DNA of 40,374 nucleotides from Sulfurimonas sp. Its GTDB lineage: Bacteria; Campylobacterota; Campylobacteria; Campylobacterales; Sulfurimonadaceae. The stretch is taken from contig JAURYA010000109.1 in the NCBI GenBank assembly GCA_030654155.1, positions 1 to 40,374 on the forward strand, read 5' to 3'. Position 1 is the first letter of the stretch. The number at the start of each line of letters is the position of its first letter. A program made the translations under genes and the position numbers. The notes beneath the pieces were generated by a model, which made no database searches, had not been told where the DNA came from, and saw nothing but the letters and a program-made list of their open reading frames with translations. Below, one piece after another: positions 28,672-31,795 of this stretch.

Positions 28672-29700
28672 TTGCAACATTTCAGATTCTCTTTTATCTT
28701 TACATTTATAGGTTTGCTTATAGCCGGATGGTGGGGATATGGTTTGGGCGGCTGGATAAACGCTGTTAATTTAATATTTATAGCGGCAATCCTTGCTTTG
28801 ATGGAGGTATCTCTCTCTTTTGATAACGCTGTCGTAAATGCTTCAATTCTCAAAACATGGGATGAGTATTGGAAGAAACTTTTCTTAACAGTCGGTATTT
28901 TAGTTGCGGTTTTTGGAATGAGACTTCTTTTCCCTCTTGTAATCGTAGCTCAAACGGCTGATTTGGGACTTTTGGAAGTTTGGGATTTAGCACTGAACAA
29001 TCCTGCCGAGTATTCAAGCAATCTTATCGCACATCATGCTGAGATATCCGCATTTGGAGGGGTGTTTTTACTGCTTGTTTTTCTTAATTTTATGCTTGAT
29101 GAGAACAAAAGCATTCACTGGTTTGAGTACCTTGAAGAGAAGTTGGGACTGCTTGGAAAAATTGAAGCTATCTCAATTTTTATCGCGATTGTAACATTAA
29201 TGACTTTTCTCTCTTTTATTGAGCAAGAGAACAAATTAGTTGTTCTTATGGCGGGATTATGGGGAATTGTTATATATGTTGGAGTTGACATTATCGGTAT
29301 TGTGTTAGAAAAAGAGGAGAGTGAGCCAGTAGTTGCGAATGTAATCAAAAAAGGAAGCATCGGCGGCTTTTTATACTTAGAAGTTTTAGACGCCTCTTTC
29401 TCTTTTGACGGCGTAATAGGTGCTTTTGCCATAACAAAAGATATCGTAATTATAATGGTTGGACTTGGTATCGGAGCGATGTTTGTAAGGTCTTTAACTA
29501 TATATCTGGTAGAAAAAGAGACGCTTGACCAATATATCTATCTAGAACACGGTGCACACTATGCGATAGGTATTTTAGCTCTGATTATGCTTTTTGGTAT
29601 GAATTTTCATATACCTGAAATATTTACGGGGCTTATCGGCATAGCTTTTATAGCATTGTCATTATGGTCTTCTGTTAAAAAAAATAGAGCTTCTTCTTAA
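28672..29700 (+). CDS. DUF475/TerC-family integral membrane protein
   Basis: A ~342-residue multi-pass membrane protein of the TerC superfamily. It has paired motifs with acidic residues in membrane helices, LMEVSLSFDNAVVNASIL and LEVLDASFSFDGVIGAFAIT, typical of metal-ion-related TerC proteins; about eight or nine helices. I take the TTG at 28672 (MQHFRFSFIF) because AAAAGGAT lies 8 bases upstream; the frame also has a TTG at 28642. Some TerC relatives export manganese. It stands just before a CNNM/CorC-type gene, so both may concern divalent cations (inference). Confidence 0.85.
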   Translation: MQHFRFSFIFTFIGLLIAGWWGYGLGGWINAVNLIFIAAILALMEVSLSFDNAVVNASILKTWDEYWKKLFLTVGILVAVFGMRLLFPLVIVAQTADLGLLEVWDLALNNPAEYSSNLIAHHAEISAFGGVFLLLVFLNFMLDENKSIHWFEYLEEKLGLLGKIEAISIFIAIVTLMTFLSFIEQENKLVVLMAGLWGIVIYVGVDIIGIVLEKEESEPVVANVIKKGSIGGFLYLEVLDASFSFDGVIGAFAITKDIVIIMVGLGIGAMFVRSLTIYLVEKETLDQYIYLEHGAHYAIGILALIMLFGMNFHIPEIFTGLIGIAFIALSLWSSVKKNRASS

Positions 29701-29720
29701 AAAATATATGGGAAGCTCTA
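29685..29720. other. Inverted repeat over the terC-like stop codon
   Basis: TAGAGCTTC (29685-29693) and GAAGCTCTA (29712-29720) form a perfect 9-bp stem with an 18-base AT-rich loop. The T-run expected of an intrinsic terminator is weak, so its role is open. Confidence 0.4.
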
Positions 29721-29756
29721 CCGTTTCAAGTGTGAAATCAACTAGTAACTTAAATG

Positions 29757-29765
29757 TGCTATAAT
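29757..29765 (+). promoter_or_regulatory. Extended -10 promoter of the leader ORF and CNNM-like gene
   Basis: TGCTATAAT is an extended -10 (TATAAT at 29760-29765). Transcription would begin near 29772, giving a short leader of about 24 bases before the ATG at 29796. Confidence 0.6.
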
Positions 29766-29795
29766 TCGACTCAAAAATTTTTAAAGGAATTTTAA

Positions 29796-29858
29796 ATGAC
29801 CCAAAGCGACCCGGACTCGCGTAGTTTTATCTTCACAGCCATAGGGATAGACCTATGA
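29796..29858 (+). CDS. Leader peptide upstream of the CNNM/CorC-like gene
   Basis: A 20-codon ORF (MTQSDPDSRS...GIDL) with an excellent ribosome site (AAAGGAA, 29783-29789, 6 bases before the ATG) directly behind an extended -10. Its stop overlaps the start of the membrane-protein gene (ATGA, 29855-29858), the signature of translational coupling. The early Asp-Pro-Asp resembles the acidic/proline N-termini that destabilise ribosomes at low Mg2+ (E. coli MgtL starts MEPDP). A Mg2+-sensing role is inference; translation of the ORF is well supported by the signals. Confidence 0.62.
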   Translation: MTQSDPDSRSFIFTAIGIDL

Positions 29859-30931
29859 CATTACTGATAATTTATCTTTCAATCGCCCTTTTTATATCGT
29901 TTATCTGTTCGATGCTTGAAGCAGTTTTACTCTCAAGTACCAACTCCTATGTTGAAAGTTTGTCTAAAGATCATAATGAAAATCTGGTCAATAAAATCAG
30001 AAGATTAAAAGCAGATATTGATAAACCAATCTCTTCTATTTTGACCGTAAACACTTTTGCCCACACTATGGGTGCAGCAGGTGTCGGCGCTCAAGCTCAG
30101 GTTGTTTTTGGAGATGAGTTGCAAACACTTATTGCTTTTATAGTAACGCTCTTAATTTTATATTTTTCAGAGATTATTCCTAAAACATACGGTGTTTTGT
30201 ATTGGAAAAAATTGCTGATTCCCTCAGCACATATAATTTCTTTTTTAGTGATGATTACTACTCCTTTTACATGGATTTCGTCGTTTTTGACAAACTACAT
30301 CTCAAAAAATAAAAAACATCAAAGCAATTTTTCGCGTGATGAGATTATGGCAGTTGTTGCAATGGGCGAAAAAGAGGGAACCATCCTTACTAAAGAGAGT
30401 GATTTGATTGAAAATCTTTTAAAGCTCAAAAACATAAAAGCAAAAGATATCATGACTCCAAGAAGTGTTGTTTTCGCCCTATCTGCAGAAACAACAATAG
30501 AAGAAGCAATTGAAGATGACCGTATGTATATTCACTCGCGCATCCCTATTTTTAGAGAGACACTTGATGATATCGTAGGTATTGTTTTTAACCAAAAAAT
30601 TCTTGAAGAGAGCAATGAAGATAATGACAGTATTTCTTTAGAGAGTATCTCGCATGAAGTACATATGGTTTCTGAAAATCTTCCTGTTCCAAATCTTATT
30701 GACCAGTTTGTAAAACGAAAAACACATCTTTTTATAGTTTATGACAATTATGGGCAGACAGTAGGTGTTGTTACTCTTGAAGATGCGATTGAGACTCTTT
30801 TAGGAGTTGAGATTGTGGATGAGATGGATGAGATTGAAGATATGCAGGTTTTTGCAAAAGATAGAAGTAAAAAGTTTCAAGATCGCATGAAAGTTGAGAG
30901 AAAAAAACTTGAAAAAGCTAAAATCGTATAA
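29855..30931 (+). CDS. CNNM/CorC-family membrane protein with CBS domains
   Basis: A 358-residue protein: DUF21 (CNNM) transmembrane domain (about residues 1-150, with CSMLEAVLLSS, TVNTFAHTMGAAGVGAQ and YFSEIIPKTYGV), a CBS pair (about 195-320, KDIMTPRSVVFAL; VYDNYGQTVGVVTLEDAIETLLGVEIVDE) and a short basic tail. It lacks the C-terminal CorC_HlyC domain. Characterised bacterial relatives (CorB/CorC) move Mg2+ with Na+. Its ATG overlaps the leader ORF stop, and a GGGA lies 6 bases upstream inside the leader, so initiation may be coupled, independent or both. Confidence 0.88.
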   Translation: MTLLIIYLSIALFISFICSMLEAVLLSSTNSYVESLSKDHNENLVNKIRRLKADIDKPISSILTVNTFAHTMGAAGVGAQAQVVFGDELQTLIAFIVTLLILYFSEIIPKTYGVLYWKKLLIPSAHIISFLVMITTPFTWISSFLTNYISKNKKHQSNFSRDEIMAVVAMGEKEGTILTKESDLIENLLKLKNIKAKDIMTPRSVVFALSAETTIEEAIEDDRMYIHSRIPIFRETLDDIVGIVFNQKILEESNEDNDSISLESISHEVHMVSENLPVPNLIDQFVKRKTHLFIVYDNYGQTVGVVTLEDAIETLLGVEIVDEMDEIEDMQVFAKDRSKKFQDRMKVERKKLEKAKIV

Positions 30932-30952: not shown

Positions 30953-31795
30953 ATGGTTAAAGTAAGTGCGATTCAGATGCAAATGAGCGAAGATCAAGAG
31001 GCTAATGTTGACAAGGCTGAGAAGCTCGCCAGAGAGGCTGCGGCAAACGGCGCTCAAATCATACTTTTACCGGAACTTTTTGAGGGCTTTTACTTCTGCA
31101 AAGATATAGATGAAAAATATTTTTCATGGGCAAAAGAGAGAGAAGGCAACAAGCTTATAGAGCGATTTAGCAGCCTTGCTAAAGAGTTGCATGTCGTTAT
31201 TTTGATTAGCTATTTTGAGAAGAGCAGTGAGGGTTATTTTAACTCTCTAGTCGTTGCAGATGCCAACGGTCAAATAATGGACAACTACCGTAAAACGCAC
31301 ATTCCCGATGGTCCCGGATATGAAGAGAAGTTCTACTTTAAACCTGGTAACACAGGTTTTAAGGTTTATGATACCGCTTACGCAAAAATAGGCGTCGGAA
31401 TCTGCTGGGACCAATGGTTTTGCGAAACGGCAAGAGCTCTAACTCTAATGGGTGCAGAGATTATTTTTTATCCGACTGCAATTGGAAGTGAACCGGAAAT
31501 CCATCTTGATTCAAAAGAGCACTGGCAGAGAGTTCAAATGGGACACGCTGCTACAAATACAGTTCCTGTTGTTGTAGCTAACCGTATCGGCGAAGAAAAA
31601 GGTGCGACATGTACTTTGAACTTTTACGGCTCATCTTTTATAACCGACTATACGGGTGCAAAAATCGCCGAAGCCTCAAGAGATAAAGAGGAGATAATCT
31701 ACGGCGAGTTTGACATAGAGGACAACCAAAAGCAGAGACACTACTGGGGACTCATAAGAGATAGACGGCCAGAGATGTACAAAAATATCTGCTAG
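30953..31795 (+). CDS. aguB: N-carbamoylputrescine amidase
   Basis: Nitrilase-fold enzyme that makes putrescine from N-carbamoylputrescine in the agmatine pathway. The Glu-Lys-Cys triad is visible: Glu41 in LLPELFEG, the lysine in YRKTHIPDGPGY and the cysteine in GVGICWDQWF. The substrate segment EKFYFKPGNTGF and C-terminal HYWGLIRDRRPEMY match AguB. 280 residues is normal. AAGGGAAATC precedes the ATG. The agmatine deiminase gene (aguA) is not in the window. Confidence 0.93.
   Translation: MVKVSAIQMQMSEDQEANVDKAEKLAREAAANGAQIILLPELFEGFYFCKDIDEKYFSWAKEREGNKLIERFSSLAKELHVVILISYFEKSSEGYFNSLVVADANGQIMDNYRKTHIPDGPGYEEKFYFKPGNTGFKVYDTAYAKIGVGICWDQWFCETARALTLMGAEIIFYPTAIGSEPEIHLDSKEHWQRVQMGHAATNTVPVVVANRIGEEKGATCTLNFYGSSFITDYTGAKIAEASRDKEEIIYGEFDIEDNQKQRHYWGLIRDRRPEMYKNIC

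Follow-up and report, generated by a model that had tools for sequence, protein, structure and literature searches.

The CNNM-family transporter gene in this Sulfurimonas DNA is preceded by a conserved 20-codon leader ORF that overlaps its start codon, and the ribosome site and start codon of the transporter are predicted to lie in a local hairpin. Sequence comparisons make it likely that the transporter is leader-coupled and start-masked, with conditional first codons in the leader. Translational coupling alone is very probable; Mg2+ sensing by ribosome drop-off is plausible and is put forward tentatively. The window, which is the whole 40,374-nucleotide stretch of DNA analysed, comes from a 1.97 Mb assembly of 153 contigs. 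The nearest named relatives are Sulfurimonas metagenome genomes, with a CNNM that is 94-97% identical.

All features of the locus are on the forward strand. An extended -10 promoter element (TGCTATAAT, 29757..29765) was read from the sequence, as was the leader Shine-Dalgarno AAAGGAA (29783..29789), which is located in an unstructured AT-rich 5' UTR. The leader ORF (MTQSDPDSRSFIFTAIGIDL, 29796..29858) starts with the ATG at 29796 and stops with the TGA at 29856-29858; the CNNM ATG is at 29855, giving an ATGA overlap with this stop codon. A previous sequence-only reading of this DNA had claimed an extended -10, a strong ribosome site, a 20-codon ORF and an ATGA overlap, and all four were present where it had placed them. 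The 29757-29765 site was not flagged by a promoter scanner that demands both hexamers.

The downstream ORF (29855..30931, 358 aa) encodes a CNNM-family transporter with a CNNM transmembrane domain (PF01595, E = 3.4e-29) and a CBS domain (PF00571, E = 8.5e-13), both above the Pfam cut-off; a CorC_HlyC domain was not found in this ORF by Pfam. GldE, CorC and PaeA-like names were returned for the gene by NCBIfam, all below their cut-offs (86.7 of 379 bits for CorC and 86.9 of 500 bits for PaeA), and it was therefore not assigned to these named subfamilies.

CNNM orthologues and their upstream DNA were gathered by genus, order and public genome searches. Group A comprised 40 distinct sequences (37 distinct leader peptides) from Sulfurimonas and Sulfurospirillum with a CNNM identity of at least 77%, and group B comprised 27 distinct sequences (25 distinct leader peptides) from Sulfurovum, some Arcobacter-like bacteria and others, at 65-75% identity. 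A short ORF was located directly upstream of the CNNM gene in all 67 distinct sequences. It was 18-22 codons long, varied by whole codons only, was open in frame in 67/67 loci and ended in every one of them with a 4-nt overlap with the CNNM start (ATGA or GTGA). The other two frames contained stop codons in 40/40 and 39/40 group A sequences and in 24/27 and 27/27 group B sequences. A frame that is always open when the others are nearly always closed, with length changes of whole codons, is good evidence that the leader is translated, and on these comparisons the window ORF is not due to chance. The conservation, reading frame and overlap of the leader are observed directly in the sequences, and the earlier claim that the leader is coupled to a CNNM-type gene was supported.

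Relatives commonly had an extended -10 of the form TGnTAnAAT in the 90 nt before the leader (34/40 group A and 24/27 group B sequences). Three Sulfurovum-type loci (L062, L066, L142) had longer 5' UTRs, in which the stretch separating the -10 from the leader ribosome site carried what looks like an inverted repeat, for example CTACTTTTGTAG. The leaders of more distant families (f15, f21) were shorter or divergent and had a TTG start, the leader of a close homologue (L137) was degenerate, and an Arcobacter-like clade at 55-63% CNNM identity had no leader. The group A genomes each carried one site for the leader motif, at the CNNM gene. A role for the motif as operator or leader at further genes of these genomes was rejected; the few two-mismatch matches elsewhere did not exceed a reversed-pattern control.

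Within the leader, the conserved N-terminal segment consists of codons 2-10 (29799..29825 in the window); it has an acidic residue near its start, lacks bulky hydrophobic residues and is 60% GC although its surroundings are AT-rich. In group A, pN was 0.104 and pS 0.240 over these codons, and 0.408 and 0.379, respectively, over codons 11-20; in the CNNM gene of the same taxa, pN was 0.116 and pS 0.668. This observed profile indicates that the second half of the leader is not constrained as a peptide and that the first half is constrained at both the peptide and nucleotide levels. Equal divergence of synonymous and non-synonymous sites, which the earlier reading had named as a sign against its proposal, was thus absent from codons 2-10 and present in codons 11-20. 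Constraint on the peptide was evident at Pro6, which was invariant in group A with all four Pro codons in use, and constraint on the nucleotides at Ser8, which was encoded by TCG in 40/40 group A sequences. The GC content of group A codons 2-10 was 0.60, compared to 0.39. In group B, an Arg codon was fixed as AGG in 27/27 leaders; AGG made up 6/261 Arg codons (2.3%) in the group B CNNM genes. A pyrimidine stood before this AGG (L023, L060-L067, L124-L142), and YGY came after it in most leaders.

An early Asp-Pro, which had been suggested as the conserved element of the peptide, was upheld in group A, where [DE]P occupied codons 5-6 in 36/37 distinct peptides, and failed in group B, where none of the 25 distinct peptides carried it. 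An early acidic residue was found in 37/37 group A and 24/25 group B distinct peptides, and an acidic-x(0,1)-acidic arrangement in 23/37 and 8/25, respectively. Bulky hydrophobic residues at positions 2-8 averaged 0.05 in group A and 0.88 in group B, compared to 3.1 in 38 window ORFs; at positions 12-18 of the same leaders the values were 2.6-2.8. The feature that is common to both groups is an early acidic residue with few bulky residues at positions 2-8, not Asp-Pro.

A possible small hairpin, GCGA(7 nt)TCGC, is located inside the conserved segment (29806..29820) in group A only. Pairing of these arms was retained in 98.1% of group A cells, without compensatory change. Two alternative helices in group A codons 3-11 likewise gave high pairing and no compensatory changes. 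Codons 9-10 in group A (window 29805-29825) were linked, being CGTAGT or TGTAGC and almost never mixed (a T at column 25 accompanied a C at column 30), as if two pairings to one G were balanced; there was no compensatory change to prove this double pairing.

The hairpin over the CNNM start in the window (CATAGG-GATAGA-CCTATG, 29840..29857) contains the CNNM Shine-Dalgarno and start codon and has a predicted MFE of -8.5 kcal/mol. The predicted group A hairpin, which includes the ribosome site and AUG, has the form CAUAGGA-N4-UUCUAUG. The one predicted for group B pairs the ribosome site (e.g. GGAGUGU) with CNNM codons 2-4 (ACACUUC), leaving the AUG in the loop. The mean MFE of the start region (-22 to +17) was -6.95 kcal/mol in group A and -7.50 kcal/mol in group B, with mean z values against dinucleotide shuffles of -1.6 and -1.8, respectively. 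The leader's own start was open by the same measure (means of -0.8 and -2.1 kcal/mol), the start regions of 18 window genes averaged -1.8 (sd 1.75), and 15 leaderless homologues were mostly near -1.4. Across a set of 59 genes the mean was -6.9 for leader-bearing and -1.4 for leaderless members (Mann-Whitney p = 8e-9, not corrected for relatedness). On the CNNM tree the presence or absence of the leader required at least five gains or losses, and absence of the hairpin accompanied absence of the leader in L137, L150 and the Arcobacter-like clade. Exceptions were observed in both directions: five leader-bearing loci had weak hairpins (L068, -1.8; L057, -2.3; L047, -2.4; L155 and L158, -2.2), and L143 had no leader yet a fairly strong one (-5.5).

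In a swap test, group B ribosome-site arms gave a better fit with the codon 2-4 arm of the same sequence than with permuted arms (p = 0.0006; p = 0.001 and 0.008 with thinned sets); for group A the p value was 0.053. The group A helix was paired in 84% of cells among 33 sequences, compared to 27-46% in slid controls, and covariation in these 33 sequences was not above shuffles. With pairing probabilities averaged over a longer context, the unpaired probability of the CNNM start was 0.36 in group A and 0.46 in group B; leaderless homologues and window genes gave 0.42 and 0.50, respectively. The contrast is smaller on this measure, and it is the local fold that carries the case for masking. Comparative data thus support the predicted start-masking hairpin well, most strongly in group B. 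It is newly recognised here that CNNM genes with the leader are predicted to have their Shine-Dalgarno and start codon in a local hairpin. An alternative switch in which leader codons 6-13 pair with the CNNM start or ribosome site was rejected, since there was no signal in group A and the group B signal was lost when L128, L129 and L133 were removed.

In Sulfurimonas, the CNNM gene is flanked upstream by a DUF475/TerC-like gene and downstream by aguB, encoding N-carbamoylputrescine amidase (window 30953-31795). This flanking was limited to Sulfurimonas and neither gene was kept in other families; the neighbours were accordingly rejected as functional partners, and only the leader and CNNM gene travel together. 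On the CNNM tree the group A genes of Sulfurimonas nested with those of Sulfurospirillaceae, which suggests that leader and transporter probably moved between lineages as a single cassette. No plasmid match was found. PaeA is a CNNM-type polyamine exporter. With aguB, a polyamine synthesis gene, behind the CNNM gene in most group A Sulfurimonas, export of polyamine rather than Mg2+ is a candidate function.

Most Sulfurimonas carry a second CNNM type (42-48% identity), which was directly behind mgtE in 19/20 loci checked (L215-L234). This linkage would support a Mg2+ role for the CNNM family, and indirectly for the window member. Sulfurimonas genomes had the mgtE-linked or the leader-coupled type, hardly ever both, and MgtE was not found in the window's own genome.

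The proposed unit runs from the promoter through the 20-codon leader and the start-masking hairpin to the CNNM transporter. The leader ribosome site appears strong and open and that of the transporter, with its start codon, folded away, so ribosomes would enter mainly by translating the leader. Ribosomes on the leader would melt the hairpin, end at the UGA that overlaps the AUG and restart on the transporter. Coupling in the cell is what we infer from this arrangement, and with a leader stop/start overlap and a predicted masked downstream ribosome site the locus appears to belong to the termination-reinitiation class. The first ten leader codons are conserved and are probably the conditional part. 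The leader peptide combines small residues with an acidic one near its start and has few or no bulky side chains, and a peptide of this sort may be held only weakly by the ribosome; conditions that weaken the ribosome would then raise drop-off and lower transporter synthesis. Early peptidyl-tRNA drop-off has been linked in E. coli to a lack of bulky residues (PMC10192219). Acidic residues near the N-terminus, combined with Pro, have been associated with destabilised ribosomes (PMC9718836, PMC11282234). Low Mg2+ would be the obvious candidate condition, in which case less CNNM is predicted at low Mg2+, and masking of the CNNM ribosome site would make it mechanically sensible that aborting the leader loses the transporter. 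Both drop-off and Mg2+ as its signal are speculative.

Three other readings of the locus each have some claim, none of them a strong one. The first, a real if minority possibility, is plain constitutive coupling, in which the leader delivers ribosomes to the masked start, senses nothing and has 5' codons that serve efficient initiation. The coupling anatomy would be fully sufficient for this, and no terminator, riboswitch or attenuator was found. However, efficient initiation would favour AT-rich unstructured codons rather than the GC-rich codons 2-10 of group A, and the strong conservation of these codons, down to the invariant TCG, and the fixed rare AGG of group B also argue against it.

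Somewhat unlikely is a strict IRD Mg2+ sensor of the MgtL/MgtQ type, in which low Mg2+ would cause ribosomes to fall off at the acidic/Pro stretch and so turn a Mg2+ exporter off. It is favoured by the [DE]P and acidic-x(0,1)-acidic frequencies, the depletion of bulky residues and the position of a CNNM relative directly behind mgtE in other Sulfurimonas. High Mg2+ eases IRD (PMC9718836), and in Salmonella proteins of the CorC family give protection against excess Mg2+ and the N-terminus of CorC itself is of the IRD type, with YoaL a positive leader of mgpA in Salmonella and E. coli (PMC12421838). Nevertheless, the [DE]P motif is not common to group B, and the leaders of the window and its groups carry only one or two acidic residues; published IRD cases usually have more, and one reporter in E. 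coli needed at least a DPEE motif (PMC11282234). MgtL-type drop-off is modulated in E. coli by EttA (PMC11282234); a full EttA was not identified, as none of the ABC-F proteins present reached the EttA cut-off.

Selection may instead have acted on the nucleotides of codons 2-11 as an RNA-level binding site or switch and not on the peptide, a reading that we regard as rather improbable. Synonymous divergence in group A is unusually low (pS 0.27, compared to 0.69 in CNNM), and the TCG and AGG codons and the GCGA/UCGC pairing are all consistent with such an element. The use of all four Pro codons at the invariant Pro6, the lack of compensatory changes and of an Rfam family, and pairing between this segment and the CNNM start that was not beyond permuted controls once three close relatives were removed argue against it.

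An origin of the leader from remnants of the pabB 3' end (C-terminal PabB sequence ...GGGITLDSDxxSEY...), pabB being directly upstream of CNNM in some relatives, is very improbable for the window. In genus g52 (family f23), the CNNM leader of L161 (1460-1500, TTG-GAT-AGC-GAC...) is a recognisable pabB 3'-end fossil by DNA alignment (score 23; shuffles reached at most 13), and some genera of f23 have a full-length pabB adjoining CNNM, as in L162 and L163. The origin is supported for L161 only: the peptide of the window's group matched the PabB C-terminus no better than shuffles did (p = 0.75), the other groups behaved likewise, and a complete pabB is present elsewhere in the window's genome. 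An amino-acid attenuator leader (no codon run; no terminator-like site in 29400-30100) and a metal riboswitch (no Rfam match to M-box, yybP-ykoY or any other RNA family in the whole window) were rejected.

The preferred reading, a leader-coupled, start-masked CNNM gene, has parallels in known systems, and we propose that the leaders form a new leader-peptide family whose mode of regulation is of a known kind, comparable to mgtQ-mgtB and YoaL-mgpA. In Salmonella mgtQ-mgtB (PMC8092293), a very short ORF with early acidic codons is likewise just upstream of a Mg2+ transporter gene whose ribosome site is masked by a stem-loop, and leader translation is needed; here the masking is predicted. However, mgtQ has 8 codons and is internal to an operon; it acts by way of alternative stem-loops (1:2/3:4 vs 2:3), and its abortion promotes an importer. 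At the window locus there is an ATGA overlap, an alternative hairpin did not gain support, and aborted leader translation would lower the amount of a putative exporter. YoaL of Salmonella and E. coli similarly overlaps the upstream region of a CorC-family gene, mgpA (yoaE); MgpA protects from excess Mg2+, and removal of the YoaL start codon lowers its translation (PMC12421838). MgpA differs in being a TerC-CBS-CorC protein, not CNNM, from another phylum. MgtL of mgtA in E. coli and Salmonella (PMC11282234) is also a Mg2+ transporter leader with early acidic/Pro residues (EPDP), but it acts on Rho-dependent termination, its target is an importer and it has two acidic-Pro units at positions 2-5 as against one at 5-6. 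LeuL, TrpL and MetL are short leader ORFs with aAGGa ribosome sites from Epsilonproteobacteria, the same class; in the part of that account available, they are proposed as amino-acid attenuators with regulatory codons, and none is described for CNNM genes (PMC3847290).

The searchable literature yielded no account of a family of leader peptides acting on CNNM transporters or on Mg2+ homeostasis in Campylobacterota. The locus could, as a doubtful case, be a minimal self-contained ribosome-stability sensor in which the ribosome reads Mg2+, or general integrity, and sets the level of a putative cation exporter without attenuator, riboswitch or protein regulator, the whole moving as one cassette. 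The coupling model can be tested directly on natural variants that have or lack the leader and hairpin, and the combination of an N-terminus poor in bulky residues, a masked start and an ATGA overlap provides a comparative signature for other such leaders. Should the coupling prove real, translated leaders would be controlling cation transporters in a phylum other than that of the enteric precedents, YoaL-mgpA and mgtQ-mgtB, and in a layout simpler than that of mgtQ or MgtL.
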